A stretch of DNA of 40,915 bases, taken from Burkholderiales bacterium (GTDB lineage: Bacteria > Pseudomonadota > Gammaproteobacteria > Burkholderiales > Burkholderiaceae_C). Below are positions 14,674-33,183 of the stretch, piece by piece (within the stretch, counting starts at the first letter, position 1; each line of letters opens with the position of its first letter). A program made the translations under genes and the position numbers. The stretch covers positions 1-40,915 of the forward strand of contig CANNRR010000014.1 in NCBI GenBank assembly GCA_947508055.1, given 5' to 3'. The notes beneath the pieces are model-generated. The model did not search any database. It was not told the origin of the DNA and saw only the letters and a program-made list of their open reading frames with translations.

Positions 14674-14722
14674 AACTTGCGGGACAGACCGAAGCGCAGC
14701 GTAGCTCTGTCGCCAACTGATT
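14671..14722 (+). repeat. junction hairpin element, copy 1 (fdhA-fdhB)
   Basis: It begins with the fdhA stop codon (TGAAAC-TTGCGGGACAGACC) and runs to CAACTGATTA just before the fdhB ribosome site. The stem GACAGA (14683-14688) pairs with TCTGTC (14706-14711). It is closely similar to the elements at 25390-25444 and 28747-28796. Confidence 0.75.
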
Positions 14723-20928: not shown

Positions 20929-23457
20929 ATGACTATTTCTTTCTGGACCCTGGGCTGGCGCACGTTGTGGCGGGATTTGCGCTCGGGTGATTTGCGGCTG
21001 CTGATTGTGGCCGTGACCCTAGCCGTGGCTGCGCTCACAGCGGTTGGTTTCTTTGCTGACCGGCTAAAAGGCGGTTTGCAGCGCGATGCGCGTCAATTGC
21101 TGGGCGGCGATGCGGTGGTGTCCAGCGACAACCCTACGCCCGAAGCCTTTGCTGCCAAAGCCCGTGAACTGGGTTTGTCTGCTGTGTCAACCATGGTGTT
21201 TCCCACCATGGCGCGCGCCACCGATGAGCAGGGCGGAACGGCCAAGCTGGTGGGCCTCAAAGTAGTGGAGCCAGGTTATCCCCTGCGGGGCTCACTGCGC
21301 GTGGCCAGTGCACCCGATGCTCCCGATGCAGTCACCCGCGACATCCCGGCTCCAGGAAAGGCCTGGGTGGATGCCGCGTTGCTGGAGTCGCTGGGCCTCA
21401 AGATGGGTGATGCCGTGTTGCTGGGTGATTCGCGCCTGACCATTGACTCCATCATCGCGGTTGAGCCCGACCGCGGTGCGGGCTTTATGAATTTTGCCCC
21501 CCGGGTGATGATCCACACGCAAGACATAGCCGGCACCAGGCTGATCCAGCCGGCCAGCCGCCTGACTTATCGGCTGGCCGTAGCGGGTGAAGACAAGCCA
21601 GTGCAGAATTTTGTGACCTGGGCAGATGGGCAAGTCAAGCAAGCCGGTGTGAATGGTCTGCGCGGTGTGCGGGTTGAATCGCTACAGGGTGGACGCCCCG
21701 AGATGAGCCAGACGCTGGACCGCGCCGATAAATTCTTGAGCTTAGTCGCCTTGCTGGCTGCGCTGCTGAGCGCCGTGGCGGTAGCCCTGTCGGCGCGCGC
21801 CTTTGCTGCCAGCCATCTGGACGATTGCGCCATGCTGCGCGTGCTGGGCCTGAGCCAGCGCACCATTGCGGCCAGCTATGCCTTTGAATTTGCACTGGTG
21901 GGTGCGTTTGCCAGCGTGCTGGGCGTGCTGCTGGGCTACGGCGTGCATTACCTGTTCGTGCTGCTGCTCGCGGGGCTGGTGGACGCCGCATTGCCTGCGG
22001 CTACGGTGTGGCCGGTGCTGCTGGGCATGGGCATGGGCTTGACGCTGTTGTTTGCCTTTGGTCTGCCGCCCGTTCTGCAACTGGCTCAGGTGCCACCGTT
22101 GCGCGTCATTCGCCGCGATGTGGGCAACCTCAAGCCCACGTCCCTTGGCGTGCTGGCGATCGGCGTGCTCGGGTTTGCGGCCCTGCTGCTGGCGGCCAGC
22201 AGCGACCTGAAACTGGGTCTGATTGCTGTGGGTGGCTTTGGTGCTGCTGCTGCCGTGTTTGCGTCACTGAGCTGGGTGGCGGTGAAGCTGCTGCGCCTGA
22301 GTGTCAACGAGAACACGGCGCCGCGCTGGCTGGTGCTGGCGACGAGGCAAATGTCGGCCCGCCCGGCCTTCACGGTGGTACAGGTCAGCGCTCTGGCCGT
22401 GGGCTTACTGGCGCTGGTGCTGCTGGTCTTGTTGCGAACCGATTTGATCAGCAGTTGGCGCAAGGCCACCCCGCCCGATGCGCCGAACCGTTTTGTCATC
22501 AACGTGATGCCAGAGCAGTCGGACGCCTTCCAGCAGATGCTTAAAGGCGCTGGTGTTAGACGGTTCGATTGGTACCCCATGATCCGCGGCCGGCTGGTGG
22601 CCGTGAATGGCCGTGCCACTGCGCCCGATGACTACACCGACGATCGCGCCAAGCGCCTGCTGGACCGCGAATTCAACGTGTCGTTCAACGCCCATATACC
22701 GCAGAAGAACGAAATTGTGGCTGGCAAGTGGACCGATAACGAATCAGGTGCCATCAGCGTGGAGGAGGGCATTGCCACCACCCTGAACCTCAAGTTGGGC
22801 GACACGCTGCGCTTTGACATTGGTGGCGTGCAGACCGAATCGAAAGTTACATCACTGCGCAAGGTCGACTGGGGCTCCATGCGGGCCAACTTCTTCGTCA
22901 TGTATCCGGTGAGCCGGTTGGACAACGTGCCCACCACCTATATGGGGGCCTTCAAAGCGCCGATTACCAAAGGGTTTGACAACGCCTTGGTGCGCCAGTT
23001 TCCGAATGTGACCAATGTGGACATGACGACCACTATTGCCCAGGTGCAGCGGGTGCTCGACCAGGTGATCCGGGCGGTCGAGTTTTTGTTCAGCTTCACG
23101 CTGGCAGCCGGTCTGGTGGTGCTATTTGCCGCTGTGACTGCCACGCGCGAGGAGCGCGCCCGAGAGTACGCCATCATGCGGGCGGTGGGCGCACGGGGCA
23201 GTTTGCTGCGCCAGGTGCAGCGTGCCGAGTTAGCCGGTGTGGGCTTGCTGGCCGGCTTTTTGGCATCTGTTGTGGCCGCCGTCGTTGGCTGGGCGCTCGC
23301 GCGCTACGTGTTCGAGTTTGAGTGGACTGTGTCGCTATGGGTGCCGCTGTTGGGTGCGCTGGCTGGTGCGGTGCTGGCGCTGGCGGCAGGCTGGTGGGGG
23401 TTGCGCGAAGTCTTGAACCGCCCTGTGGTGGAGACGCTGCGACGGGCAACAACCTGA
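20929..23457 (+). CDS. FtsX-like ABC transporter permease (YbbP type)
   Basis: 842 residues. An N-terminal helix is followed by a large periplasmic domain and then three membrane segments (about 265-390). A second periplasmic domain and a C-terminal FtsX-like domain follow (AAGLVVLFAAVTATREERAREYAIMRAVGARGSLLRQVQRAEL). This is the double-FtsX layout of YbbP/MacB-type permeases involved in lipoprotein or lipid handling. The usual ATPase partner is not next to it here; it may lie elsewhere. AAGGTAG precedes the ATG. No functional link to the FDH or AOR genes is visible. Confidence 0.9.
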   Translation: MTISFWTLGWRTLWRDLRSGDLRLLIVAVTLAVAALTAVGFFADRLKGGLQRDARQLLGGDAVVSSDNPTPEAFAAKARELGLSAVSTMVFPTMARATDEQGGTAKLVGLKVVEPGYPLRGSLRVASAPDAPDAVTRDIPAPGKAWVDAALLESLGLKMGDAVLLGDSRLTIDSIIAVEPDRGAGFMNFAPRVMIHTQDIAGTRLIQPASRLTYRLAVAGEDKPVQNFVTWADGQVKQAGVNGLRGVRVESLQGGRPEMSQTLDRADKFLSLVALLAALLSAVAVALSARAFAASHLDDCAMLRVLGLSQRTIAASYAFEFALVGAFASVLGVLLGYGVHYLFVLLLAGLVDAALPAATVWPVLLGMGMGLTLLFAFGLPPVLQLAQVPPLRVIRRDVGNLKPTSLGVLAIGVLGFAALLLAASSDLKLGLIAVGGFGAAAAVFASLSWVAVKLLRLSVNENTAPRWLVLATRQMSARPAFTVVQVSALAVGLLALVLLVLLRTDLISSWRKATPPDAPNRFVINVMPEQSDAFQQMLKGAGVRRFDWYPMIRGRLVAVNGRATAPDDYTDDRAKRLLDREFNVSFNAHIPQKNEIVAGKWTDNESGAISVEEGIATTLNLKLGDTLRFDIGGVQTESKVTSLRKVDWGSMRANFFVMYPVSRLDNVPTTYMGAFKAPITKGFDNALVRQFPNVTNVDMTTTIAQVQRVLDQVIRAVEFLFSFTLAAGLVVLFAAVTATREERAREYAIMRAVGARGSLLRQVQRAELAGVGLLAGFLASVVAAVVGWALARYVFEFEWTVSLWVPLLGALAGAVLALAAGWWGLREVLNRPVVETLRRATT

Positions 23458-23468
23458 ATAGGCCTTTT

Positions 23469-23500
23469 TGCTATGAATTTAGTAGCTTGTCACGCTTATT
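23469..23500. repeat. dispersed Comamonadaceae-type short repeat, intergenic
   Basis: TGCTATGAATTTAGTAGC with adjoining TTGTCACGCTTA resembles, in reverse, the family repeat with a (A)GCTAnnAATTTnnTAGCA core that I recall from Comamonadaceae genomes. It is located between two convergent genes, where such elements often sit. Confidence 0.5.
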
Positions 23501-23525
23501 CCACGGGGCCTGGATGCCCATTCTA

Positions 23526-24701
23526 TTAATGGTTGTCAGGCCTGCCCTGCTTCTGCCCCAGCTTGCGGTACACCGTCGCCCGGCTAATGCCCAAGGCTTG
23601 TGCGGCTTGCGCGATGTTGCCGCGGGCCTGGTCGATGGCTTTGCGGATCAAGGCGGTCTCCATGTCTTTCAACGCAACCGTGTCCCGCCCACCGTTCAAC
23701 GGGGTGGCCTGCATGGCCTGTGCTTCCTGAGCGCGCAGCAGGGGTAGCGCCTGCAGGCGAAGGCCGGTCCACAGGGGAATCTCCAGCACCGGGTCGCTGC
23801 GGTGCGCCGCGTCAAACAGCAACTCAAAACCGATGCCGAATACCTCGCTCACATGCACGGCCACCGGGCGCTGGGTGTGTGCGTGTGCCTGCCGCGGCGT
23901 TGCCAACTGGGGCACCATCTGCCGTGCAGTGGGGTTGGCAGCCGAGATCCAGCCATCGGTGTCCAGGCAGACAATGCCGTCGGCGTCGGTGCCCAGTGTG
24001 TTGCCCGGCCAGTTCAGCCGCACCACCAGGGTGTGTGGTTGCGCCAGTACCAGCGCATTCTCAATGTGGCTGGCGGTCTGGGTGACCAGGTGTTTGAGTT
24101 CGGGGCGCTCCACGGCGTCAATACCGGTCAGGTCCAGCATGCCCACGCAGACACCGTCAGGCCCCCACAGCGGCGCACCGGCGCAACTGTAAACCGCGGT
24201 GTTGGAGAAGAAGTGTTCGCCCCGGTGCAGCCACACGGGTTGCAATTCGTTCAGGGCAACTCCAATGGCGGTGGTACCGACGCTGCGCTCTGACAAGTCG
24301 GTGCCAATGCGGGTGATCAGGTCAGCGCGCGGGTCCGAGCGATCAATGGCGCCGCTGGTGTCCACCACTACGCCGTCCCGGTTGGTCAAGATGGCGAAGT
24401 AGCGCGTGTTGACGATGGCACGCCCCAGCTTCTCCAGAATCGGTTTGGCGGTTTGAACCAGTTGCTGGTTGCCTTCCTGGGTGCGCTGCATCTGCTGGTG
24501 CGTTACCGTGTCAAAAGCAACCGGCTGTTGCGGCGCCAGCCCCAGGTGCAGGCAGCGTTGCCATGAGCGCTCCACCCAAGGTGCAATCCACCCAGCGGGC
24601 AGTTCGCTGCGGTCTTGCATGGCGACCTGTCTTGCCCGCGCAATGGCGTCAAGGCGGCTGGTCGCTTCAGCCAGCAGGGAAGGGTGCGTAGCGGTGCTCA
24701 T
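23526..24701 (-). CDS. GAF-Fis transcriptional regulator without an AAA+ domain, divergent from aor
   Basis: 391 residues from the ATG at 24701; a GTG at 24746 gives 406. The N-terminal part is AcoR-like (WERCL-type helix, ILEKLGRAIVNTRYFAILTNRDGVVVDTSG, GTDLSERSVGTTAIGVAL, HFFSNTAVYSCAGAPLWGPDG), a GAF-type sensor module. A PAS-like segment follows (GIVCLDTDGWISAANPTARQM). The protein ends in a Fis-type helix-turn-helix (GNIAQAAQALGISRATVYRKLGQ). No Walker A, GAFTGA or Walker B motif exists between them, so unlike true AcoR it should not drive sigma-54. It is divergent from the AOR operon, with about 214 bp between starts, and is the best candidate for its regulator. The effector may be an aldehyde, by analogy only. 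Confidence 0.88.
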   Translation of the reverse strand: MSTATHPSLLAEATSRLDAIARARQVAMQDRSELPAGWIAPWVERSWQRCLHLGLAPQQPVAFDTVTHQQMQRTQEGNQQLVQTAKPILEKLGRAIVNTRYFAILTNRDGVVVDTSGAIDRSDPRADLITRIGTDLSERSVGTTAIGVALNELQPVWLHRGEHFFSNTAVYSCAGAPLWGPDGVCVGMLDLTGIDAVERPELKHLVTQTASHIENALVLAQPHTLVVRLNWPGNTLGTDADGIVCLDTDGWISAANPTARQMVPQLATPRQAHAHTQRPVAVHVSEVFGIGFELLFDAAHRSDPVLEIPLWTGLRLQALPLLRAQEAQAMQATPLNGGRDTVALKDMETALIRKAIDQARGNIAQAAQALGISRATVYRKLGQKQGRPDNH

Positions 24702-24801
24702 GAGTGGTGGTTTGGCAGAGCCATGGTGTGATGCATTCTCCCGCACTAGGAGGTCGGCTGCAGTGTTTCATTTTGAGAATATCGTCACAAAGCGAATGTC
24801 C

Positions 24802-24823
24802 TACTAGGGTTAGTACTAGGGTT
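24802..24823. promoter_or_regulatory. TACTAGGGTT direct repeat upstream of aorA
   Basis: TACTAGGGTT occurs at 24802-24811 and again at 24814-24823, a 12-bp period; a further ACTAGG lies at 24745-24750. The 8-bp palindrome TAGTACTA (24811-24818) bridges the two copies. The gap between the regulator and aorA contains no sigma-54 consensus in the right register. These repeats are candidate sites for the divergent GAF-Fis regulator. Confidence 0.4.
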
Positions 24824-24915
24824 TTAATCGGGCCGAGTGCGAACAATCGCTATGTACTTTATTTCATAAGCAAGGCATTGCATAGGTTGCATGCCGTTAC
24901 CCTGAGGAGAGACGC

Positions 24916-25392
24916 ATGCAAAAGATGTTGCACATCAACGCGGACAAATGCACGGGCTGTATGCAGTGCGAAATGGCCTGCGCTTTTGAGAACTATGGCA
25001 CCTTCGCCACAGCCAAGTCGCGCATCAAGGTGTTCGACTTTCACCACACGGGCAAAAAGGTTCCCTACACCTGCACCCAGTGCGACGAGGCATGGTGCCT
25101 GCATGCCTGCCCGGTGGAGGCCATTACGGTAGACAAGGCCACCGGCGCCAAGGTGGTTAACGAATCTACCTGCGTGGGTTGCAAGGTTTGCACCATCGCC
25201 TGCCCGTTTGGCACCATCAATTACGTTCAGGAAACCGGAAAAGTCCAGAAATGTGATCTGTGCGAAGGCTCACCGGCTTGCGCCGAGGCTTGCCCCACCG
25301 GCGCCATCACCTTTATCGATGCCAACTGGACGGGACTGGGCAAGATGGCCCAGTGGGCCGACAAGCTTGGCAACCAACCGTCTGCAACCTGA
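24916..25392 (+). CDS. aorA: AOR electron-transfer subunit, four-cluster ferredoxin
   Basis: 158 residues with 16 cysteines in four ferredoxin-type sets. These are C12/C15/C18/C22 (CTGCMQCEMAC), C53/C56/C61/C65 (CTQCDEAWCLHAC), CVGCKVCTIAC, and CDLCEGSPACAEAC; four [4Fe-4S] clusters are expected. It precedes a catalytic AOR gene in the order known for Aromatoleum aromaticum aorAB, where AorA forms a cluster-wired filament that carries AorB units. Whether this protein polymerises cannot be read here. TGAGGAGAG directly upstream is a strong ribosome site. It heads the AOR operon. Confidence 0.9.
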   Translation: MQKMLHINADKCTGCMQCEMACAFENYGTFATAKSRIKVFDFHHTGKKVPYTCTQCDEAWCLHACPVEAITVDKATGAKVVNESTCVGCKVCTIACPFGTINYVQETGKVQKCDLCEGSPACAEACPTGAITFIDANWTGLGKMAQWADKLGNQPSAT

Positions 25393-25444
25393 AACCTTGT
25401 GGGACAGACCAATGCGCAGCATTGCACTGTCCTCAACTGATTAA
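25390..25444 (+). repeat. junction hairpin element, copy 2 (aorA-aorB)
   Basis: It includes the aorA stop (TGAAACCTTGTGGGACAGACC) and ends with CAACTGATTAAA just before the aorB ribosome site. The outer stem GGACAG (25402-25407) pairs with CTGTCC (25427-25432). The inner stem CAATGC (25410-25415) pairs with GCATTG (25419-25424) around loop GCA. It is the best-paired of the three copies. Confidence 0.8.
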
Positions 25445-25458
25445 ATTGGAGTAACGAT

Positions 25459-27312
25459 ATGTCTTGGGCTGGAAAAATTCTCCGCGTTAACTTGACCGCG
25501 GGCACCGTCAAGTCTGAACCTCTCAACATGGACTGGGCACGCGACTATATTGGTTCGCGTGGCTTGGGCACAAAGTATCTGGTCGAAGAGGTGGCGGCAA
25601 CTGTCGACCCGCTCTCGGCCGACAACAAAATCATATGGGCTACCGGCCCGTTGACCGGTACCATGGCATCCACGGGAGGGCGCTACACCGTCATCACCAA
25701 GGGCCCTCTGACCGGCGCCATTGCCTGCTCCAACTCGGGCGGTTACTGGGGTGCTGAGTTCAAGATGGCCGGCTGGGACATGGTTATCTTTGAAGGTAAA
25801 TCTGCCAAGCCGGTGTACCTGTATGTGAATGACGATGTGGCCGAGCTGCGCGACGCCGCCCATCTGTGGGGCAAGAGTGTCTGGGAGACCGAGGCGACGC
25901 TGAAGTCCAGCTTGCAAGATCCGTTGACCCGCGTGTCCAGCATTGGCAAGGCCGGTGAAAACGGCGTTCTGTTTGCAGCCGTGGTGAATGACCTGCACCG
26001 CGCCGCCGGACGCTCAGGCGTTGGGGCCGTGATGGGCAGTAAGAACCTCAAGGCGATTGCCGTGCGTGGCACCAAGGGCGTGGGCAACATCCGAGACCCC
26101 AAGGCTTTCATGGCGGCCGTGAAGACTGCCAAAAAGGTGCTGGCAGACAACGGGGTCACCGGTACCGGCTTGCCCGCCATGGGTACCCAGGTGCTGATGA
26201 GTGTGATTAACGAAGTGGGCGCCTTGCCCACCCGCAATCACCGCGACAACCAGTTTGAAGGCGCCAAGGACATTGGCGCCGAAGCCATGGCCGCGCCACG
26301 CAAGACCGATGGCAAGAAGCATCTGGTCACCAACCAGGCTTGTTTTGGTTGCACCATTGCCTGTGGTCGCATCAGCAAGATGGACGAGACCCACTTCACC
26401 ATCGAGAACAAGCCGCAGTACCGTGGTGCCAATGGCGGCCTCGAATACGAAGCGGCCTGGGCGCTGGGTGCAGCCAATGGCGTGAACGACTTGGAGGCGC
26501 TGCAATACGCCAATCTGTTGTGCAACGAAGAGGGCATTGATCCCATCAGCTTTGGTGCCACCGTGGGTGCGGTGATGGAGTTGTACGAGATGGGTGTGCT
26601 GACCAAAGAGCAGATTGGCATCGACGCCAAGTTTGGCTCGGCGAAGACGCTCGCCTTTTTGGCCGAAGAAACCATCTATGGTCGCGGTTTTGGCAAGGAA
26701 ATCGGCCAGGGCTCCAAGCGCCTGACCGCCAAGTATGGCCACCCGGAACTCTCCATGTCGTCCAAGGGCCAGGAGTTCCCGGCCTATGACGGCCGCGCCA
26801 TCCAGGGCATCGGTCTGGCCTACGCCACATCCAACCGTGGTGGCTGTCACCTGCGCGGCTACACCATCGCCTCCGAGGTGCTGGGCATTCCGGTCAAGAC
26901 AGATCCGCTGGAGCATGAAGGCAAGCCCGATCTGGTCAAGGCTTTCCAGGACGCCACTGCCGCGTTTGACTCGTCGGGCTTGTGCATCTTCACCACCTTT
27001 GCGTGGGGTCTTCAAGACCTGTCTCCGCAAATGCAGGGTGCATGTAATGAGGACTACACGATTGAAGAACTGGCCAAGATTGGTGAACGCATCTGGAACA
27101 TGGAGCGCGAGTTCAACAACCGTGCTGGTTTCACCCACAAGGACGACAGTCTGCCCGCGCGCCTAACCAGCATTGAAGGTGCCTGCAAAACCGGCCCTGC
27201 CAAGGGCAAGTTCAACATGCTCGCCGACATGCTGCCAAAGTACTACGCCGCCCGCGGCTGGGATGCCGAAGGCCGCCCAACAGCGGCGACGAAAGAGCGC
27301 TTGGGCCTTTAG
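25459..27312 (+). CDS. aorB: tungsten-type aldehyde:ferredoxin oxidoreductase, catalytic subunit
   Basis: 617 residues, the size of AOR family members. Domain 1 carries the pyranopterin-binding text (GKILRVNLT, GSRGLGTKYLVEEV, WATGPLTGTMASTGGRYTVITKGPLTG, NSGGYWGAEFKMAGWDMVIFEGKS). The cofactor-proximal [4Fe-4S] ligands are C295, C298, C302 (CFGCTIAC) and C509 (SSGLCIFT). GVGAVMGSKNLKAIAVRGTK and DLVKAFQDATAAFDSSGLC are also family-typical. AOR enzymes oxidise aldehydes to acids at a W-bis-pyranopterin; most are archaeal or anaerobic, fewer are bacterial. The divergent tupBCA-linked supply genes in this window support tungsten. TTGGAG precedes the ATG. Confidence 0.95.
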   Translation: MSWAGKILRVNLTAGTVKSEPLNMDWARDYIGSRGLGTKYLVEEVAATVDPLSADNKIIWATGPLTGTMASTGGRYTVITKGPLTGAIACSNSGGYWGAEFKMAGWDMVIFEGKSAKPVYLYVNDDVAELRDAAHLWGKSVWETEATLKSSLQDPLTRVSSIGKAGENGVLFAAVVNDLHRAAGRSGVGAVMGSKNLKAIAVRGTKGVGNIRDPKAFMAAVKTAKKVLADNGVTGTGLPAMGTQVLMSVINEVGALPTRNHRDNQFEGAKDIGAEAMAAPRKTDGKKHLVTNQACFGCTIACGRISKMDETHFTIENKPQYRGANGGLEYEAAWALGAANGVNDLEALQYANLLCNEEGIDPISFGATVGAVMELYEMGVLTKEQIGIDAKFGSAKTLAFLAEETIYGRGFGKEIGQGSKRLTAKYGHPELSMSSKGQEFPAYDGRAIQGIGLAYATSNRGGCHLRGYTIASEVLGIPVKTDPLEHEGKPDLVKAFQDATAAFDSSGLCIFTTFAWGLQDLSPQMQGACNEDYTIEELAKIGERIWNMEREFNNRAGFTHKDDSLPARLTSIEGACKTGPAKGKFNMLADMLPKYYAARGWDAEGRPTAATKERLGL

Positions 27313-27332
27313 AGAGCCACAGCAAAGGTTTT

Positions 27333-27386
27333 TTGGGGTCGGATCACCGAAGTGAGCGAAGCGAACGCAGTGTGCTCTGACCCCAA
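27333..27386 (+). repeat. GGGGTC-type hairpin repeat between aorB and aorC
   Basis: TTGGGGTC (27333-27340) pairs with GACCCCAA (27379-27386), with partial pairing continuing inwards. About 38 nt lie between the arms. It is a different sequence from the three GGGACAGACC elements but has the same position in the operon. Hairpins of this kind, with GGGGTCAGA/TCTGACCCC arms, are dispersed in Comamonadaceae genomes as I recall. Confidence 0.7.
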
Positions 27387-27411
27387 TAAACCGGACCGGA
27401 AACAACGAAAC

Positions 27412-27436
27412 AGCGGTCGTCAATGACCGCTTTTTT
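27412..27436 (+). terminator. intrinsic terminator between aorB and aorC
   Basis: AGCGGTC (27412-27418) pairs perfectly with GACCGCT (27425-27431) around a 6-nt loop, followed by six T (27431-27436). The arms are GC-rich and the T-run starts immediately, a textbook Rho-independent terminator. It ends 12 bp before the aorC start, with the T-run just ahead of the TGGAG ribosome site, so it should partly stop transcription into aorC or act as an attenuator. Confidence 0.75.
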
Positions 27437-27448
27437 CTGGAGATCCCC

Positions 27449-28744
27449 ATGACCCACCACCTCATCCTCGGCGCTGGCCCGGCCGGCGTTATCGCGGCAG
27501 AAACCATCCGCAAGCTTGCACCCGATGACACCATCACCATCGTCGGCGATGAGCCCGAGCCGTCCTACTCGCGCATGGCCATTCCGTACTTGTTGATGGG
27601 CAACATTGACGAGCGCGGCACCTACCTGCGAAAAAGTGCCACCCACTTTGACGACATCAAGGTAAAAGTGGTGCGAGCCCTCGTCAAATCAGTGCAGGCT
27701 GCTACGAAAACGGTAGCGCTGGACAATGGTCAGTCCCTCAGCTTCGACACGCTGCTGGTCGCAACCGGCTCGCACCCGGTGCGCCCGCCGATCCCCGGCA
27801 TCGAATCAGAAGGCGTGCATGCTTGCTGGACGCTGGCAGATGCCCGCGCCATTGCGTCGCTGGCTACCAAGGGTGCGCGGGTGCTGCAACTCGGTGCCGG
27901 TTTCATCGGCTGCATCATCATGGAAGCGCTGGCCGCGCGCGGCGTTGAGTTGAGTGTGGTCGAGATGGGTGACCGCATGGTGCCGCGCATGATGGGCCCC
28001 ACCGCAGGCGGGATGATTCGGGACTGGGTCGAGGCCAAAGGCGTGCAGGTCTTTACCGGCACCAAGGTTGAAAGCATCACGCCAGGCAAGCCCTTGCAGG
28101 TCAAGCTCTCCAACGGCAAAACAGTGGCGGCTGATCTTGTTATCAGCGCGGCCGGTGTACGCCCTGCCATTGGCTACTTGAAAGACTCTGGCATTACCTG
28201 TTTGCTGGGAGTGCTGACCGACGAACATCTGCAGACGAATGTGCCTGGGGTGTACGCCGCAGGTGACTGCGCCGAGGCGCTTGACAAGGTGTCCGGCAAG
28301 ATGATCGTCAGTGCTATTCAACCCAACGCTGCCGAGCAAGCGCGTGTGGCCGGGGCAAACATGGTGGCGTTTTCGCGCGGAAACGCGGCCACGTCGAACC
28401 TCAAGGGCGTCACGCAAATCAATGTGCTCGACACGCTGGGTTTGATATCCACCAGCTTTGGCGACTGGCAAGGACGCCCCGGTGGCGAGCATGTGGAACT
28501 GACCGACATCAAAGCCGGCCGTCACCTGAGTCTGCAATTTCAGGGCGATGTCCTGGTGGGTTGCAACAGCGTGGGCTGGACCGAGCATGTGGGCGTGATG
28601 CGCGGTCTGGTTGAGGGGCAGGTCAAATTGGGTGAATGGAAAGAGCGGCTCAAGCAGGATCCCACCAAACTGATGGAAGCCTATTTAGCCAACGCGCAGG
28701 CGCAAGGCCAGTGGGCCGGTGCACAGGACGAGCGACGTAGGTAA
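27449..28744 (+). CDS. aorC: FAD/NAD(P)-dependent oxidoreductase subunit of the AOR complex
   Basis: 431 residues. The FAD-binding Rossmann motif GAGPAGVIAAE is at the N-terminus, and a second NAD(P)-type motif LGAGFIGCIIMEALAARG follows near residue 150. A C-terminal FAD motif YAAGDCAEA and pyridine-nucleotide-disulfide-oxidoreductase text (LLVATGSHPVRPPIPG) complete the class. It lies downstream of aorB in the position of AorC in Aromatoleum, where it passes electrons from the AorA clusters to NAD+. It has a spaced ribosome site TGGAG after the terminator. Residues encoded by about 27676-27718 match the 36-nt repeat-like element of torD and tupA. Confidence 0.9.
   Translation: MTHHLILGAGPAGVIAAETIRKLAPDDTITIVGDEPEPSYSRMAIPYLLMGNIDERGTYLRKSATHFDDIKVKVVRALVKSVQAATKTVALDNGQSLSFDTLLVATGSHPVRPPIPGIESEGVHACWTLADARAIASLATKGARVLQLGAGFIGCIIMEALAARGVELSVVEMGDRMVPRMMGPTAGGMIRDWVEAKGVQVFTGTKVESITPGKPLQVKLSNGKTVAADLVISAAGVRPAIGYLKDSGITCLLGVLTDEHLQTNVPGVYAAGDCAEALDKVSGKMIVSAIQPNAAEQARVAGANMVAFSRGNAATSNLKGVTQINVLDTLGLISTSFGDWQGRPGGEHVELTDIKAGRHLSLQFQGDVLVGCNSVGWTEHVGVMRGLVEGQVKLGEWKERLKQDPTKLMEAYLANAQAQGQWAGAQDERRR
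27683..27718 (+). repeat. 36-nt repeat-like segment within aorC
   Basis: CGTCAAAT to GGTAGC, 36 nt, in frame inside aorC. Its first eight bases equal those of the tupA copy, and GCTGCTA...GGTAGC matches the arms. No insertion has disrupted the reading frame. Confidence 0.5.
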
Positions 28745-28746
28745 GC

Positions 28747-28796
28747 TGAAACCCTGCGGGACAGACCGAAGTAAAGCGGAGTTGTGTCCTCAACAT
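28747..28796 (+). repeat. junction hairpin element, copy 3 (aorC-aorD)
   Basis: It begins TGAAACCCTGCGGGACAGACC two bases after the aorC stop and ends TGTCCTCAAC just before the aorD start. The stem GGACA (28759-28763) pairs with TGTCC (28785-28789). The inner loop differs from copies 1 and 2. Confidence 0.7.
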
Positions 28797-29051
28797 ATGA
28801 AAATCACGCTCAAACTATTTGCGTCACTCACAGACTACCTGCCGATTACCTCCAAGTACACCAATATCGTGGAGATAGAGGTGCTCGATGGCGCCACCAT
28901 CGCGCAGATCACCGAGCCCTATCGATTGCCAACCGCCCTGGTGCATCTGGTGTTGGTCAACGGTCGCTACATTGCGCCCGAACAGCGCGCCATTCAGGTG
29001 CTGGTGGAAGGCGATGTGCTCGCCATCTGGCCGCCGATAGCCGGTGGTTAG
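28797..29051 (+). CDS. aorD: MoaD/ThiS-like sulfur carrier of the AOR operon
   Basis: 84 residues with a ubiquitin-like look (MKITLKLFASLTDYLP, IEVLDGATIAQI, VHLVLVNGRYI, LVEGDVLAIWPPIAGG). It ends in the Gly-Gly pair that MoaD and ThiS proteins use for thiocarboxylation. A MoaD-like protein in an AOR operon probably gives sulfur for the pyranopterin or for a dedicated W-cofactor pathway. The start at 28797 directly follows the hairpin; no clear Shine-Dalgarno is left, which suggests that the hairpin affects its translation. A longer frame from 28719 would overlap aorC. Confidence 0.85.
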   Translation: MKITLKLFASLTDYLPITSKYTNIVEIEVLDGATIAQITEPYRLPTALVHLVLVNGRYIAPEQRAIQVLVEGDVLAIWPPIAGG

Positions 29052-29063
29052 CTAACCGCCAAC

Positions 29064-29363
29064 ATGCAATCTTTTTACGCCGAGCGCTTCGAGCGCGAAA
29101 TGGGTTGTACCGAGGCCGACTGGCTGCGCTGGCTGCCCGGCGCGGTGGGCGACAACCACTGGAAATTGCAAGAGCATTGCGCTGGTGTGCGCATCGGTGA
29201 AGGTGCGCTCGGTCTGAAGTGGCAGGCGGGCGAGCCGCGCGTCATCGCGTTGGTGCGGATGCCGCGCCTGCTGGTGAGTTTTCGCTTTGCCGGGCTGGAC
29301 GATGGCCAGCGCTATGCCTTCATGCAGCGTTTTGATTTGTATATGCAGCGGGGTGGCGGGTGA
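29064..29363 (+). CDS. conserved-looking small protein closing the AOR operon
   Basis: 99 residues, soluble, rich in Trp and Arg (WLRWLPGAVGDNHWKL, GEPRVIALVRMPRLLVSFRF), one cysteine in MGCTEADW and one in EHCAGV. It ends YMQRGGG, a Gly-rich tail next to a MoaD-like protein with a Gly-Gly tail. It starts 12 bp after aorD. Its position corresponds to the last gene of aorABCDE-type operons, but I do not recognise the family and assign no function. A role in cofactor insertion is a guess. Confidence 0.72.
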   Translation: MQSFYAERFEREMGCTEADWLRWLPGAVGDNHWKLQEHCAGVRIGEGALGLKWQAGEPRVIALVRMPRLLVSFRFAGLDDGQRYAFMQRFDLYMQRGGG

Positions 29364-29367
29364 ATCC

Positions 29368-29748
29368 CTAATCGTTAATGATCCGTGGATCCAGGCTGAC
29401 GCGTTGTCCGCTTGCATTGACCAAATTGACGTCGTACTTGAACTGTTTCTTGTCGACGTGTTTCAGCTTCTTGCAAACAAACACGGTCGATGAAGAGCCT
29501 TGTTTTCTGCAATCCCCGTAATCTGTTCCATCTCCTGCAATGACGATGCCGTTATTGGCAAACGAATAACCGGCGGTCGCAAGTGACCAAACGATTTTTT
29601 GATGATTTTTTGACATGTTTGCCGGATCGGGGCTTACAGATATCACGCCGTTATTGACCGACACGTTTACGGCTCTATCGGAGTTCCCTTGGGCCAGAAC
29701 GCCTTGTGCAATGGCCAAGCCGGCGAGCAATGTCAATTGAAGTCGCAT
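29368..29748 (-). CDS. small secreted protein of unknown function
   Basis: 126 residues. A signal peptide (MRLQLTLLAGLAIAQGVLAQG) is cleaved probably after AQG. The mature part has two cysteines (YGDCRKQ and VFVCKKL) that could form a disulfide, and a beta-rich look (AVNVSVNNGVISVSPDPANM). Good ribosome site GGAG upstream. It is convergent with the AOR operon, 4 bp after its last stop, and divergent from the cyclase gene. No family recognised. Confidence 0.75.
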   Translation of the reverse strand: MRLQLTLLAGLAIAQGVLAQGNSDRAVNVSVNNGVISVSPDPANMSKNHQKIVWSLATAGYSFANNGIVIAGDGTDYGDCRKQGSSSTVFVCKKLKHVDKKQFKYDVNLVNASGQRVSLDPRIIND

Positions 29749-29823
29749 TGAAAGTCTCCAGGTTATTCGTCAACCAAAACGGTGTCGATGATTTCATTCT
29801 ACGCACAGTTGCCATAATGCAGA

Positions 29824-32800
29824 ATGACCATAGAAAGACATCAGCTGGAAGTCACTATTGCCACTTTGGAAGCACAGCGTCCAGTGCTTGGCGATGCAGT
29901 GGTGGATCTGTCCGTGGCGCCCTTGCGCGCCAGGCTCGATGCGCTTTTGGCCCCATCCGAGTCGACGCCTGAGCATCGCGGTCAGACACTTAAACAGGTC
30001 ACTATTCTCTTTCTGGATGTCGTTGGCTCGACTGCCCTAAGCCTTCAACTCGATCCTGAAGCGTTTCACGCCATTATTGACGGGGTGTTGCGGCGCGGTA
30101 CCAAAATCTTGATAGACCATGGCGGCAAGGTCATCAGCTATGCAGGTGACAACATCATTGCCGTTTTTGGAGGTGTTGAAGCCAGTGAGGATGCCGCCGA
30201 GCGTGCGGTCCATGCCGGACTGGGGCTGCTGGAAGTTGGCAGTGACCTACAAGCAGATGTGTTGCAGCGCTTTGGTCTGGCGGGCTGCAATGTGCGAGTC
30301 GGCATCCATACTGGACCGGTTCTACTGGGCGGTGGGGTGCAGGCAGACAACACAATTAGCGGTCATAGCGTCAACGTCGCAGCGCGCATGGAGCAAACCG
30401 CCCCGCCGGGTGCCATGCGGGTCAGTCACACCACCTATGGCATGGTGCGTGGTGTGTTCGATGTCGAGCCGCAGGCGCCGGTCATAGTAAAGGGTATCGA
30501 TGAGCCCATGTTGACCTACTTGGTGCTTCGCGCAAAACCACGTGCTTTCAGAGGCACCTCTCGCGGGATTGAGGGCATCGCAACGCGGATGATTGGACGC
30601 GAGGCCGAGATGGAAATGATGCAAGACGCCTTTTTTCGACTTTGCCAGAAACGTCGGCTAGAGGTGCTTCTCATTGTTGCTGAGGCAGGTCTTGGCAAGA
30701 GTCGCCTTCTTTATGAGTTCAACAACTGGGCCGACATTCGACCCGAAGTTTTTACAATATTTCAGGGCAGTGCCAACCCGCAATCCCAGACACAACCCTA
30801 TGGGCTTTTGCGCGATATCCTCGCACGGCGCTACCAGTTGCTCGACAGCGACAGCATGCAGGAGACCAAGAGTAAGTTTGAAGCGGGACTGTCAGAGCTT
30901 TTTGCAGATGAAGGTCCCGACTATTCTTCCGCTCACGCGCATCTTCTTGGACAACTTGTCGGCCTTGACTTTAGCGACAGTCGCCACGTCAGGGGCATCA
31001 TCGATGATGCAAAGCAAGTTCGCAATCGTGCGTTTCACGCTGCGGCACAAATCTTTCGACGAATTGCGCTGCGAACTGGGAATCCCATCGTACTTGAACT
31101 GGATGACCTGCATTGGGCCGATGACGCCTCGCTTGATTTTCTCAATTACCTTACCCAAGTAAACCGCGATGTTGCGCTGATGATTATCGGGTTGACCCGT
31201 GCAACACTCTTTGAACGTCGCACGGATTGGCGCAGCACTGAAGGATTTCTCAGGCGAATTGATCTTGAGCCTCTGGATAAGACTGGCAGCAGACTGCTTG
31301 CCAACGAGTTGCTAAAGAGGTTAGTTGAAATACCAGCGTCGTTGCGGGAACTGGTCACGGTAGGAGCCGAAGGCAATCCGTTCTACATGGAAGAACTGGT
31401 AAAGATGCTCATTGACCAGGGTGCCATTGAAACCACAGATGAAAAGTGGCGCGTTGATCCTGAAAAATTGATCAACACACAGGTTCCGCCGACCCTCACC
31501 GGGATCTTGCAGGCCCGTTTGGATGGACTGCCTTTGGCTGAGCGTCATGCGTTGCAGAAGGCCAGTGTGATCGGGTTGACGTTTTGGGATACAGCGCTTG
31601 GCGCTCTCGATCTGCATGCTACCGAGGCTCTGCCCGCGCTAGTGCGAAGAGGGTTGACGTTACAGCGTGAAGCCGGTACTTTGGACGATGCTCATGAATT
31701 CGCCTTTAAGCACCATATCCTCCATCAAGTGACTTATGAGACCCTGCTAAAAAGCTATAAGCGCGAACTTCATGCAAAAACAGCGCATTGGCTTGCTAAC
31801 TTGACTGGAGCGCGCGCTGGCGATTTTCTCGGCGCGACAGCCGATCACTATGAGCAGGCCGGCGACTACCCCAATGCCATCGAGTTCTTCACCCGTGCTG
31901 CTGAACATGCCAAGGCCGGTTATGTTCACTTGTCCGCCTTGAATCACGTGGAACATGCGTTGAACTTGCTGGAATCGACGAGGACTGGCAACGGTGCAGA
32001 TGTCTTTCGCGCGCAGTTGCAATGGAGGCTGTTGGACGTACGCGAGTCAACGCTGAAGTTGCAAGGAAAGCGCGACGCACAGCGTGCTGACCAGATAGCT
32101 ATGGAAACTGTAGCGAATGCGCTTAACGACAGCAAGCGCAAGGCGGAAATTGCAAGTCGGCGTGCGCATTTGGCCATGCGGATCTCGGACTTCCAGACAC
32201 AAGAGGCTACTGCTCGCATTGCCATCCAACTTGCCAGCGACGCTTCGGAAATTGAATGGCAACTCAAGTCGCAAAGGGTACTGTGTGCTGCGTTGGCCGG
32301 TCAGGGAAAGGCGGCCGCGGCCATGGATCTTGCGCGCAGCGGGTTGTCCGAAGCGCGACAAAGGGGCTTTCGGCAATTGGAAGGATTGATCCTCTCTGAT
32401 CTTTCCCATATGTTGTTCAACCAGGGGAAAATAGTCGTTTCAATGGAAATGACTTCTCAGGTATTGGAGATCAATCGGGAAGTCGGAGATCGCGTTAACG
32501 AGGCCAATAATGTGGGCAATCGGGGAGTCGGCTGGCTCCAGTTTGGCGCACTGAACGAAGCTCGTGCGGATATCGAAGCGGCCTTGCAAATGAGCCGCAT
32601 GGTTGGCGACCGTACCAGTGAGGGAGCACATTTGGCAAACCTCTCCCGGTTGACGCTTATGCAAGGTAATGAGGCCCTGGCATTGGTCCATGCACGCGCG
32701 GGGTTGGACATTGCCGTGGCAACCGAAGCGGCCTCTTGGGAGTTGGTTAGTTTGGTTTACATGGGCAACGCCGAGATGGCACTTGGCCGGCTGGCGGATG

Positions 32801-33183
32801 CGAGGCGAGCCTTTGTCCGCGCAGAGTCGATTGGACAACGAATTGGCAGTGCTTGGCGTTTTGACGCAGTTGCTGGTCTGGCACGCGCTGCGCTCGAAGC
32901 CGCAGACCTAGACGAGGCAACGAGACAAGTGGAGATATTGCTGGGCCAAATCGAAACTGCATCTGCCTTGGATGAGGTCGATCTTCCGCGCTTGATCGAA
33001 TTGACCTGCTACAGGGTCCTTGCTGCGGCGGGAGATTCCCGTGCGCATGCAGTGCTAATGCGTGCCCATAATCTTTTGCTGACTCAAGCAGATGACATTC
33101 CCGATGCAACCCTACAGCAAAGCTTTCTTGACAACATTCCAGAGCACCGGGAGATTGTGAGAGCTTGGGCGGCGCGCAAGTAG
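29824..33183 (+). CDS. class III nucleotide cyclase-like domain fused to AAA/NACHT-type ATPase and TPR-like repeats
   Basis: 1119 residues. The cyclase-like domain (about 55-230) has ILFLDVVGSTAL with the first metal Asp, YAGDNIIAVFGG with the second metal Asp, and SVNVAARME with the transition-state Asn and Arg. The two base-recognition positions are not the usual Lys and Asp (Ser in GGKVISYAGD, Thr in NTISGHSVN). A P-loop ATPase follows (AEAGLGKS, residues 286-293; VLELDDLHWADDASLDFL). The remaining half, about 640-1110, is helical and TPR-like. This is the layout of large bacterial regulatory cyclases. No Shine-Dalgarno precedes the ATG, and CATAAT lies only 5 bp upstream, so a leaderless transcript is possible. 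Confidence 0.9.
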   Translation: MTIERHQLEVTIATLEAQRPVLGDAVVDLSVAPLRARLDALLAPSESTPEHRGQTLKQVTILFLDVVGSTALSLQLDPEAFHAIIDGVLRRGTKILIDHGGKVISYAGDNIIAVFGGVEASEDAAERAVHAGLGLLEVGSDLQADVLQRFGLAGCNVRVGIHTGPVLLGGGVQADNTISGHSVNVAARMEQTAPPGAMRVSHTTYGMVRGVFDVEPQAPVIVKGIDEPMLTYLVLRAKPRAFRGTSRGIEGIATRMIGREAEMEMMQDAFFRLCQKRRLEVLLIVAEAGLGKSRLLYEFNNWADIRPEVFTIFQGSANPQSQTQPYGLLRDILARRYQLLDSDSMQETKSKFEAGLSELFADEGPDYSSAHAHLLGQLVGLDFSDSRHVRGIIDDAKQVRNRAFHAAAQIFRRIALRTGNPIVLELDDLHWADDASLDFLNYLTQVNRDVALMIIGLTRATLFERRTDWRSTEGFLRRIDLEPLDKTGSRLLANELLKRLVEIPASLRELVTVGAEGNPFYMEELVKMLIDQGAIETTDEKWRVDPEKLINTQVPPTLTGILQARLDGLPLAERHALQKASVIGLTFWDTALGALDLHATEALPALVRRGLTLQREAGTLDDAHEFAFKHHILHQVTYETLLKSYKRELHAKTAHWLANLTGARAGDFLGATADHYEQAGDYPNAIEFFTRAAEHAKAGYVHLSALNHVEHALNLLESTRTGNGADVFRAQLQWRLLDVRESTLKLQGKRDAQRADQIAMETVANALNDSKRKAEIASRRAHLAMRISDFQTQEATARIAIQLASDASEIEWQLKSQRVLCAALAGQGKAAAAMDLARSGLSEARQRGFRQLEGLILSDLSHMLFNQGKIVVSMEMTSQVLEINREVGDRVNEANNVGNRGVGWLQFGALNEARADIEAALQMSRMVGDRTSEGAHLANLSRLTLMQGNEALALVHARAGLDIAVATEAASWELVSLVYMGNAEMALGRLADARRAFVRAESIGQRIGSAWRFDAVAGLARAALEAADLDEATRQVEILLGQIETASALDEVDLPRLIELTCYRVLAAAGDSRAHAVLMRAHNLLLTQADDIPDATLQQSFLDNIPEHREIVRAWAARK

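Follow-up and report, generated by a model that had tools for sequence, protein, structure and literature searches.

A position-conserved predicted intrinsic terminator inside the aorABCD operon

Why should an operon whose genes all point the same way hold a hairpin and a T-run between its second and third genes? The question is raised by a 40,915-nt stretch of contig CANNRR010000014.1 from a Burkholderiales bacterium (assembly GCA_947508055.1), hereafter the window, in which aorA, aorB, aorC and aorD all lie on the + strand. The first-pass annotation proposed that a partial terminator just before aorC gives an excess of AorAB over AorC matching the filamentous AOR enzyme of Aromatoleum. The features concerned are the following.

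24916–25392, + strand: aorA, four-cluster ferredoxin-like wire subunit (Pfam Fer4 models)
25459–27312, + strand: aorB, tungsten catalytic subunit (PF01314 and PF02730)
27412–27431, + strand: predicted terminator stem-loop AGCGGTC-GTCAAT-GACCGCT (sequence, scan and folding; position conserved with covariation)
27431–27436, + strand: U-tract of the predicted terminator (sequence; 3' T enrichment at blindly chosen hairpins of relatives)
27438–27442, + strand: aorC Shine-Dalgarno TGGAG (sequence; immediately 3' of the U-tract)
27449–28744, + strand: aorC, FAD/NAD cap subunit (PF07992; best PDB match 8c0z_E)
28797–29051, + strand: aorD, MoaD/ThiS-like maturation factor (PF02597)

The PDB entry that best matches AorC bears the name potential subunit of aldehyde oxidoreductase. 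AorA ends in the C-terminal tail ...DANWTGLGKMAQWADKLGNQPSAT, the counterpart of the tail from which EbN1 AorA builds its filament helix (PMC10413684). The aorA–aorB gap is 66 nt, versus a median of 22 nt in the window's group (defined below). A 99-residue ORF with neither a Pfam nor an NCBIfam match lies directly 3' of aorD (29064–29363), possibly at the position of aorE. Adjoining the region upstream of aorA is the gene of a divergent regulator (23526–24746, − strand) whose Pfam matches include GAF and a Fis-type HTH_8 but no AAA+ domain. The protein encoded at 29824–33183 has 1119 residues and matches to adenylate/guanylate cyclase, AAA ATPase and TPR. The same genome carries a second gene of the aldehyde ferredoxin oxidoreductase family (G000:C5:16250-17584, L002).

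The candidate has the form of an intrinsic terminator, with a G+C-rich, short-loop stem and a U-tract immediately 3' of it. The stem (27412–27431) has 7 bp, 5 of them G-C, and a folding energy of −11.4 kcal/mol; its loop is 6 nt, or 4 nt if a possible extra G-T closing pair forms. The first T of the U-tract also closes the stem, and the tract reads TTTTTTC (27431–27437). From the last T of the run to the aorC ATG (27449) there are 12 nt (27437–27448) containing CTGGAG, and the stem ends 17 nt from the ATG. The hairpin, T-run and 12-nt spacing given in the first-pass annotation are exact when checked against the sequence. On a d'Aubenton Carafa-type score the candidate reaches +11.3, and it ranks first and has the most pairs among 11 terminator-like sites in a scan of 22000–32000. 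The number of such sites is at chance level (11, versus a shuffle mean of 9.7, s.d. 3.2), so the 10-kb scan by itself proves nothing for the terminator. The segment 27320–27449 folds with a z of −4.56, none of 200 shuffles being equally good, and in the predicted fold an upstream CCGGAAA pairs with the U-tract and the ribosome site. What places the predicted terminator above chance is its recurrence in relatives together with compensatory changes in its stem.

The relatives' loci comprise 30 from genomes of the family (31 of 100 have an AorB match), 80 on named contigs (the best 80 of 592 confirmed), 23 of the 27 matching genomes (of 300) of the order, 40 of the 81 matching genomes (of 199) in the family of G210, hand-picked and mostly one per genus, and 40 of the 48 matching genomes (of 369) of the class. 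Four of these 213 loci have no aorC in reach (L023, L069, L142 and L187), which leaves 209, and removal of near-copies (>97% over the last 600 nt of aorB) leaves 199. The window's family group consists of the 30 loci of the same family code, its own genome included, L129 and the 80 named records (L049–L128), which were assigned by similarity and title and not by family code. The strict rule for a terminator hairpin demands a perfect stem of at least 6 bp with at least 4 G-C and at most 1 G-T pairs, a loop of 3–10 nt, and at least 4 T in 7 nt beginning 0–2 nt 3' of the stem.

By this rule, which overlooks imperfect stems (e.g. L067) so that counts are low, the aorB–aorC gap holds a terminator hairpin in 93 of the 199 dereplicated operons: 66/100 in the window's family group, 10/17 in other Burkholderiales, 10/43 in the EbN1 family and 7/39 in other orders. 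A relaxed, bulge-tolerant finder was dropped as over-permissive, since 36.3 of 84 shuffled gaps were positive. Within Burkholderiales, 77 of 121 dereplicated operons have a strict hit, which is 77 of the 99 gaps of at least 30 nt; 20 rounds of dinucleotide shuffling of those 99 gaps give a mean of 4.2 and a maximum of 9. The opposite strand also passes the rule in 29/99. Strict hits are absent in every group from the aorA–aorB gaps (195 gaps, 36 of at least 30 nt examined) and from the aorC–aorD gaps (162 gaps, 43 of at least 30 nt examined), control gaps that are mostly short, so that few are able to hold a hairpin. The hairpin is found directly behind aorAB, the genes predicted to be required in excess (93/199), and not in the other gaps (0/36 and 0/43). 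Median lengths of the aorB–aorC gap in the four groups are 83.5, 86, 80 and 60 nt, versus 22, 16.5, 13 and 14.5 nt for aorA–aorB.

The position recurs while the sequence does not. Stems vary widely (AGCGGTC, ACGGCTC, AGGGGGCAG, AGGGGCG, AGGGGGAAAAT). In an alignment of 47 stems, 94.4% of cells are paired, versus 86.9% with partners shuffled, a percentage biased upwards because all 47 were pre-selected for a hairpin. The informative part is the double changes and the slid-alignment controls: both sides change in 5 of 8 pairs, with 38 such cells versus 6.9 when shuffled, and slid alignments pair in 26–67% of cells. These 47 are what remained of 59 listed hairpins after 12 were removed by hand, namely the GGGGGCAG-type stems of L095, L097, L108, L109, L111, L114, L121, L122, L125 and L129, plus those of L077 and L112. 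A terminator conserved despite sequence change, for which the first-pass annotation had proposed a comparison of related genomes, is what the shuffle control, the group counts and the covariation together describe.

The T-run was also assessed separately from the stem. When the strongest hairpin of each gap is picked blind to its flanks, at least 4 T of 8 occur on the 3' side in 56/76 and on the 5' side in 2/76 of the window's group. The corresponding counts are 8/10 and 0/10 in other Burkholderiales families, 7/25 and 1/25 in the EbN1 family, and 7/17 and 2/17 in other orders. Compared with shuffles, the aorB–aorC gaps of each of the four groups also have the better folds (median z −2.75, −2.91, −2.43 and −2.93).

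Good folding would also be expected of a post-transcriptional arrangement, in which the operon transcript is cleaved in the aorB–aorC gap, the stem shields aorAB from 3' exonucleases (SRPS) and there is little termination. SRPS is documented (PMC4423207, PMC8219983, PMC10667835), and several of the operons have strong post-aorB stems with no T-run. One of them comes from genome G493 (L244), whose AorC is identical to 8c0z_E over 204 residues. We take 8c0z to be the EbN1 enzyme, and G493 is putatively the A. aromaticum EbN1 genome. Its aorB–aorC gap of 114 nt has a strong hairpin and no T-run, and stems in four near relatives likewise have none. Because the putative EbN1 hairpin lacks the T-run, the proposed mechanism may not extend to the enzyme whose stoichiometry was published. 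Stems of this kind also occur in the Azospirillum plasmid operons L242, L243, L264, L265 and L266, where a stem follows aorB with no aorC adjacent; 4 of these 5 stems have no T-run, and that of L242 narrowly passes the strict T rule. Their gaps fold with z of −2.1 to −3.0, except that of L266, which is no better than shuffles (z −0.62). However, SRPS needs no T-run, yet the T-run is strongly enriched 3' of the hairpins of the window's group. The long aorC–aorD gaps of two groups fold well too (median z −2.56, n=5; −2.84, n=8), so in those groups a stable fold does not by itself mark out aorB–aorC. We therefore regard protection with little termination as unlikely for the window, while keeping it in view.

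A different concern is whether aorC is reached by transcription from upstream at all. Of the 66 stems in the window's group, 59 end at most 30 nt from the aorC ATG (median 21 nt). In a comparison of 70 loci, with genes called by a simple in-house rule, the aorB–aorC gap has a terminator in 51/70, 45 of the 51 lying within 30 nt of the start; among the 93 remaining co-directional gaps, 14 have a strict terminator, only 2 of the 14 being that close to the next start. A scan limited to sigma-70-like sites finds none between 25551 and 30731; over the 10 kb scanned, promoter-like sites, like the terminator-like ones, are at chance number. With the U-tract running straight into the aorC ribosome site, a promoter 3' of it does not fit, and one placed 5' of the terminator would be subject to that terminator too. 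A working terminator would leave aorC reliant on read-through, and would then be partial. On this sequence-based argument, aorC probably depends on read-through of a partial terminator. The canonical stem and T-run, and the distance of more than 30 nt from the next start in 12 of the 14 other terminators, would suit a full terminator for aorAB with aorC as a separate transcription unit under its own promoter. This arrangement is highly improbable given the 17-nt spacing here, the short spacing in the group and the result of the promoter scan, which covers that one promoter type.

Terminator strength was considered as a sign of leakiness and rejected. Scores above 0 are reached by 52/92 strict hits (35/66 in the window's group), and aorB–aorC terminators do not differ in score from the other terminators of the same loci. 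The sequence itself thus carries no 'leaky' sign, and that the terminator leaks is a deduction from aorC being needed. Of the partial terminator with read-through suggested in the first-pass annotation, read-through is favoured over a separate promoter by the abutting ribosome site, while the leakiness stands as that deduction. The same closeness, with the terminator immediately 5' of the aorC ribosome site, is what one would look for in a regulated attenuator, at which conditions or a factor would alter the read-through into aorC. Such regulation is about as improbable as a separate aorC unit: the loops and the upstream sequence are free to vary among relatives, and no Rfam family reaches threshold in 22000–32000, the one sub-threshold match lying elsewhere.

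We favour the reading in which 27412–27436 would act as a partial terminator and would also supply the 3' end of aorAB messages, with a probability of roughly 0.6. RNA polymerase that enters the operon ahead of aorA would transcribe aorAB; some of it would halt at the U-tract, and the remainder would continue into aorC and aorD. The stem would remain at the 3' end of the aorAB message and protect it, and aorAB RNA would exceed aorC RNA. The purpose would be to have AorAB protomers outnumber the AorC cap. The published accounts describe (αβ)2γ as the most abundant AOR species, in addition to free AorAB and assemblies with as many as four protomers to one AorC (PMC10413684, PMC9295118), and the structure paper leaves the filament length in the cell open (PMC10413684). 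That the terminator matches the filament stoichiometry is plausible, though the odds lean against it.

Translation may contribute to the same difference. We measured the Shine-Dalgarno as the longest match to TAAGGAGGTG, for which random places average 2.49. Mean matches in the four groups are 4.8–5.3 for aorA, 5.3–6.1 for aorB, 3.8–4.2 for aorC and 2.0–2.8 for aorD. The aorB match is longer than that of aorC in 166 of 198 operons, equal in 23 and shorter in 9; in the window the two are equal, GGAG both. This ladder supports lower predicted AorC synthesis in general. In Burkholderiales gaps below 30 nt the mean aorC match is 3.3 (20 rows), versus 4.0 (76 rows), a comparison confounded by the position of the aorC ribosome site, which in short gaps falls inside aorB. 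Among independent pairs compared for a weaker aorC site in the absence of the terminator, 4.9 agree, 0.1 disagree and 4.0 have no difference (median p 0.06). A weaker aorC ribosome site in operons lacking the terminator is suggestive only.

Many operons do without the terminator. The 116 Burkholderiales AorB rows include 20 whose gap is below 30 nt and another 20 whose gap is longer yet has no strict hit. On an AorB tree built from Burkholderiales rows not in the EbN1 family (116 of 117), terminator presence changes 24 times, at least 16 of them on well-supported branches; such frequent gain and loss indicates that the terminator is dispensable. Loss of the filament tail in terminator-less operons was considered and ruled out, as the AorA tail is kept: in the 20 short-gap rows AorA has 157–164 residues, with the same tail in the 15 that were printed, and lengths of 15, 57 and 58 in other rows look like wrong start calls. 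Aromatoleum as the matching case, on which the first-pass annotation had drawn, is not supported, given the putative EbN1 gap with its hairpin and no T-run and the many lineages that lack the terminator and keep the tail.

Between the aorB stop and the terminator the window has a second hairpin, and related palindromes occupy the neighbouring gaps.

27333–27386, + strand: upstream hairpin, REP-like dispersed repeat GGGGTCGGATCACCG...TGTGCTCTGACCCC (genome copies; −25.8 kcal/mol)
25401–25437, + strand: second-family REP-like palindrome GGGACAGACC...GTCCTCAAC in the aorA–aorB gap (genome pattern copies)
28758–28794, + strand: second-family REP-like palindrome GGGACAGACC...GTCCTCAAC in the aorC–aorD gap (genome pattern copies)

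The upstream stem is longer and stronger than the 27412 stem (−25.8 versus −11.4 kcal/mol) and has no T-run 3' of it. The pattern GGGGTCRGATCAC-(0-30)-GTGYKCTGACCCC has 7 exact copies in the window's genome and none when reversed. Like REP elements, the hairpin is a genome-dispersed palindrome; its copy number is lower, with 9 BLAST matches including itself (E ≤ 0.001; 40 of 49 initial candidates scored, genome 92% complete) versus the more than 100 per genome described as usual (PMC2817692). The second family has 10 exact-pattern copies in the same genome and none in the reversed control, and its short core recurs in the window as GGACAGACC at 14682. A RAYT origin of the 27333–27386 hairpin is unsupported. 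The RAYT transposase domain PF01797 has no match in the 92%-complete genome; it has matches in 7/7 relatives bearing the repeat, and RAYT flanks at 10 loci of relatives have GGGGTCAGATTC-like ends in 6, none in 4 and the full element in 0.

In relatives, the stretch from the aorB stop to the terminator holds the 27333-type repeat, other palindromic inserts or little. Palindromes of the GTCATTGC type are found in the aorB–aorC gap of L049, L051, L054, L056, L058 and L085, the GGGAGAG type in L084, L092, L098 and L105, and the CTTGTCGCT type in L094 and L115; of the repeat types in these gaps, genome copies were counted for the GGGGTC family. The 27333–27386 hairpin is, by its sequence, a separate and incidental repeat and not the conserved part, and it may give extra 3' protection. 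A reading of the two hairpins as a single device is not supported, since one is a REP-like repeat and another family fills the remaining two gaps; with REP-like repeats in all three gaps from aorA to aorD, the repeats do not single out aorC. The gathering of such repeats in the aorB–aorC gap and the frequent absence of the terminator would fit an effectless, repeat-derived palindrome kept by chance or as a relic. This is the least probable account of all, as positional recurrence far exceeds that of shuffles and control gaps and the stems covary.

In the Azospirillum operons, aorA–aorB-like genes precede those for MoaD, NADH-quinone oxidoreductase subunit L and a proton-conducting transporter subunit, with nuoB next where the stretch reaches. 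AOR is perhaps coupled to a membrane module there. Judged from the gene orders, the common factor of the predicted stems is the end of aorAB and not aorC. A broader but doubtful proposal is that the post-aorB hairpin splits AOR operons generally across Pseudomonadota; it would yield AorAB in bulk and limit what follows, the AorC cap or, in Azospirillum, MoaD and the NADH-dehydrogenase-like module. Lineages would achieve this by a terminator, a T-less stem or a weaker aorC ribosome site, and read-through together with the ribosome-site ladder would serve as a ruler of nanowire length.

That internal terminators and stem-loops set subunit ratios is already known. A literature search, with subscription journals mostly outside it, found no paper that brings a terminator together with aorB and aorC and, judged by title and opening of the abstract, none on the AOR aorB–aorC gap. 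If AorAB is set in excess over a nucleating AorC by a swappable terminator, filament length would become testable and tunable, which would be useful for an acid-reducing enzyme. The operons also form a natural series: at a single gap, a terminator has been acquired, altered and lost many times over.

In E. coli, the malE–malF gap holds a REP sequence, a dispersed palindrome, downstream of the gene made in excess. The upstream hairpin (27333–27386) resembles it, whereas the REP-like repeats of the AOR operon occupy all three gaps from aorA to aorD. The cip-cel operon of Clostridium cellulolyticum, an SRPS case, likewise has intergenic stem-loops in an operon for a multisubunit complex, but works via cleavage and stability, for which a T-run is unnecessary (PMC4423207). 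The aorABCDE operon of A. aromaticum EbN1 has the same genes in the same order (PMC6365974, PMC9295118, PMC10413684), with the strong hairpin of its 114-nt gap in the putative EbN1 genome; unlike the window, it has no T-run after the hairpin. The ABC importer operons of cellulolytic Clostridia differ in enzyme and phylum, and the efficiency of their internal terminators, 20.7–96.1%, was measured, whereas the AOR terminator is predicted from sequence. Like the AOR operon, they are described as carrying a stem-loop and U-rich tail between the excess and the lesser genes of a polycistronic operon, with read-through setting the subunit ratio (PMC9045158).
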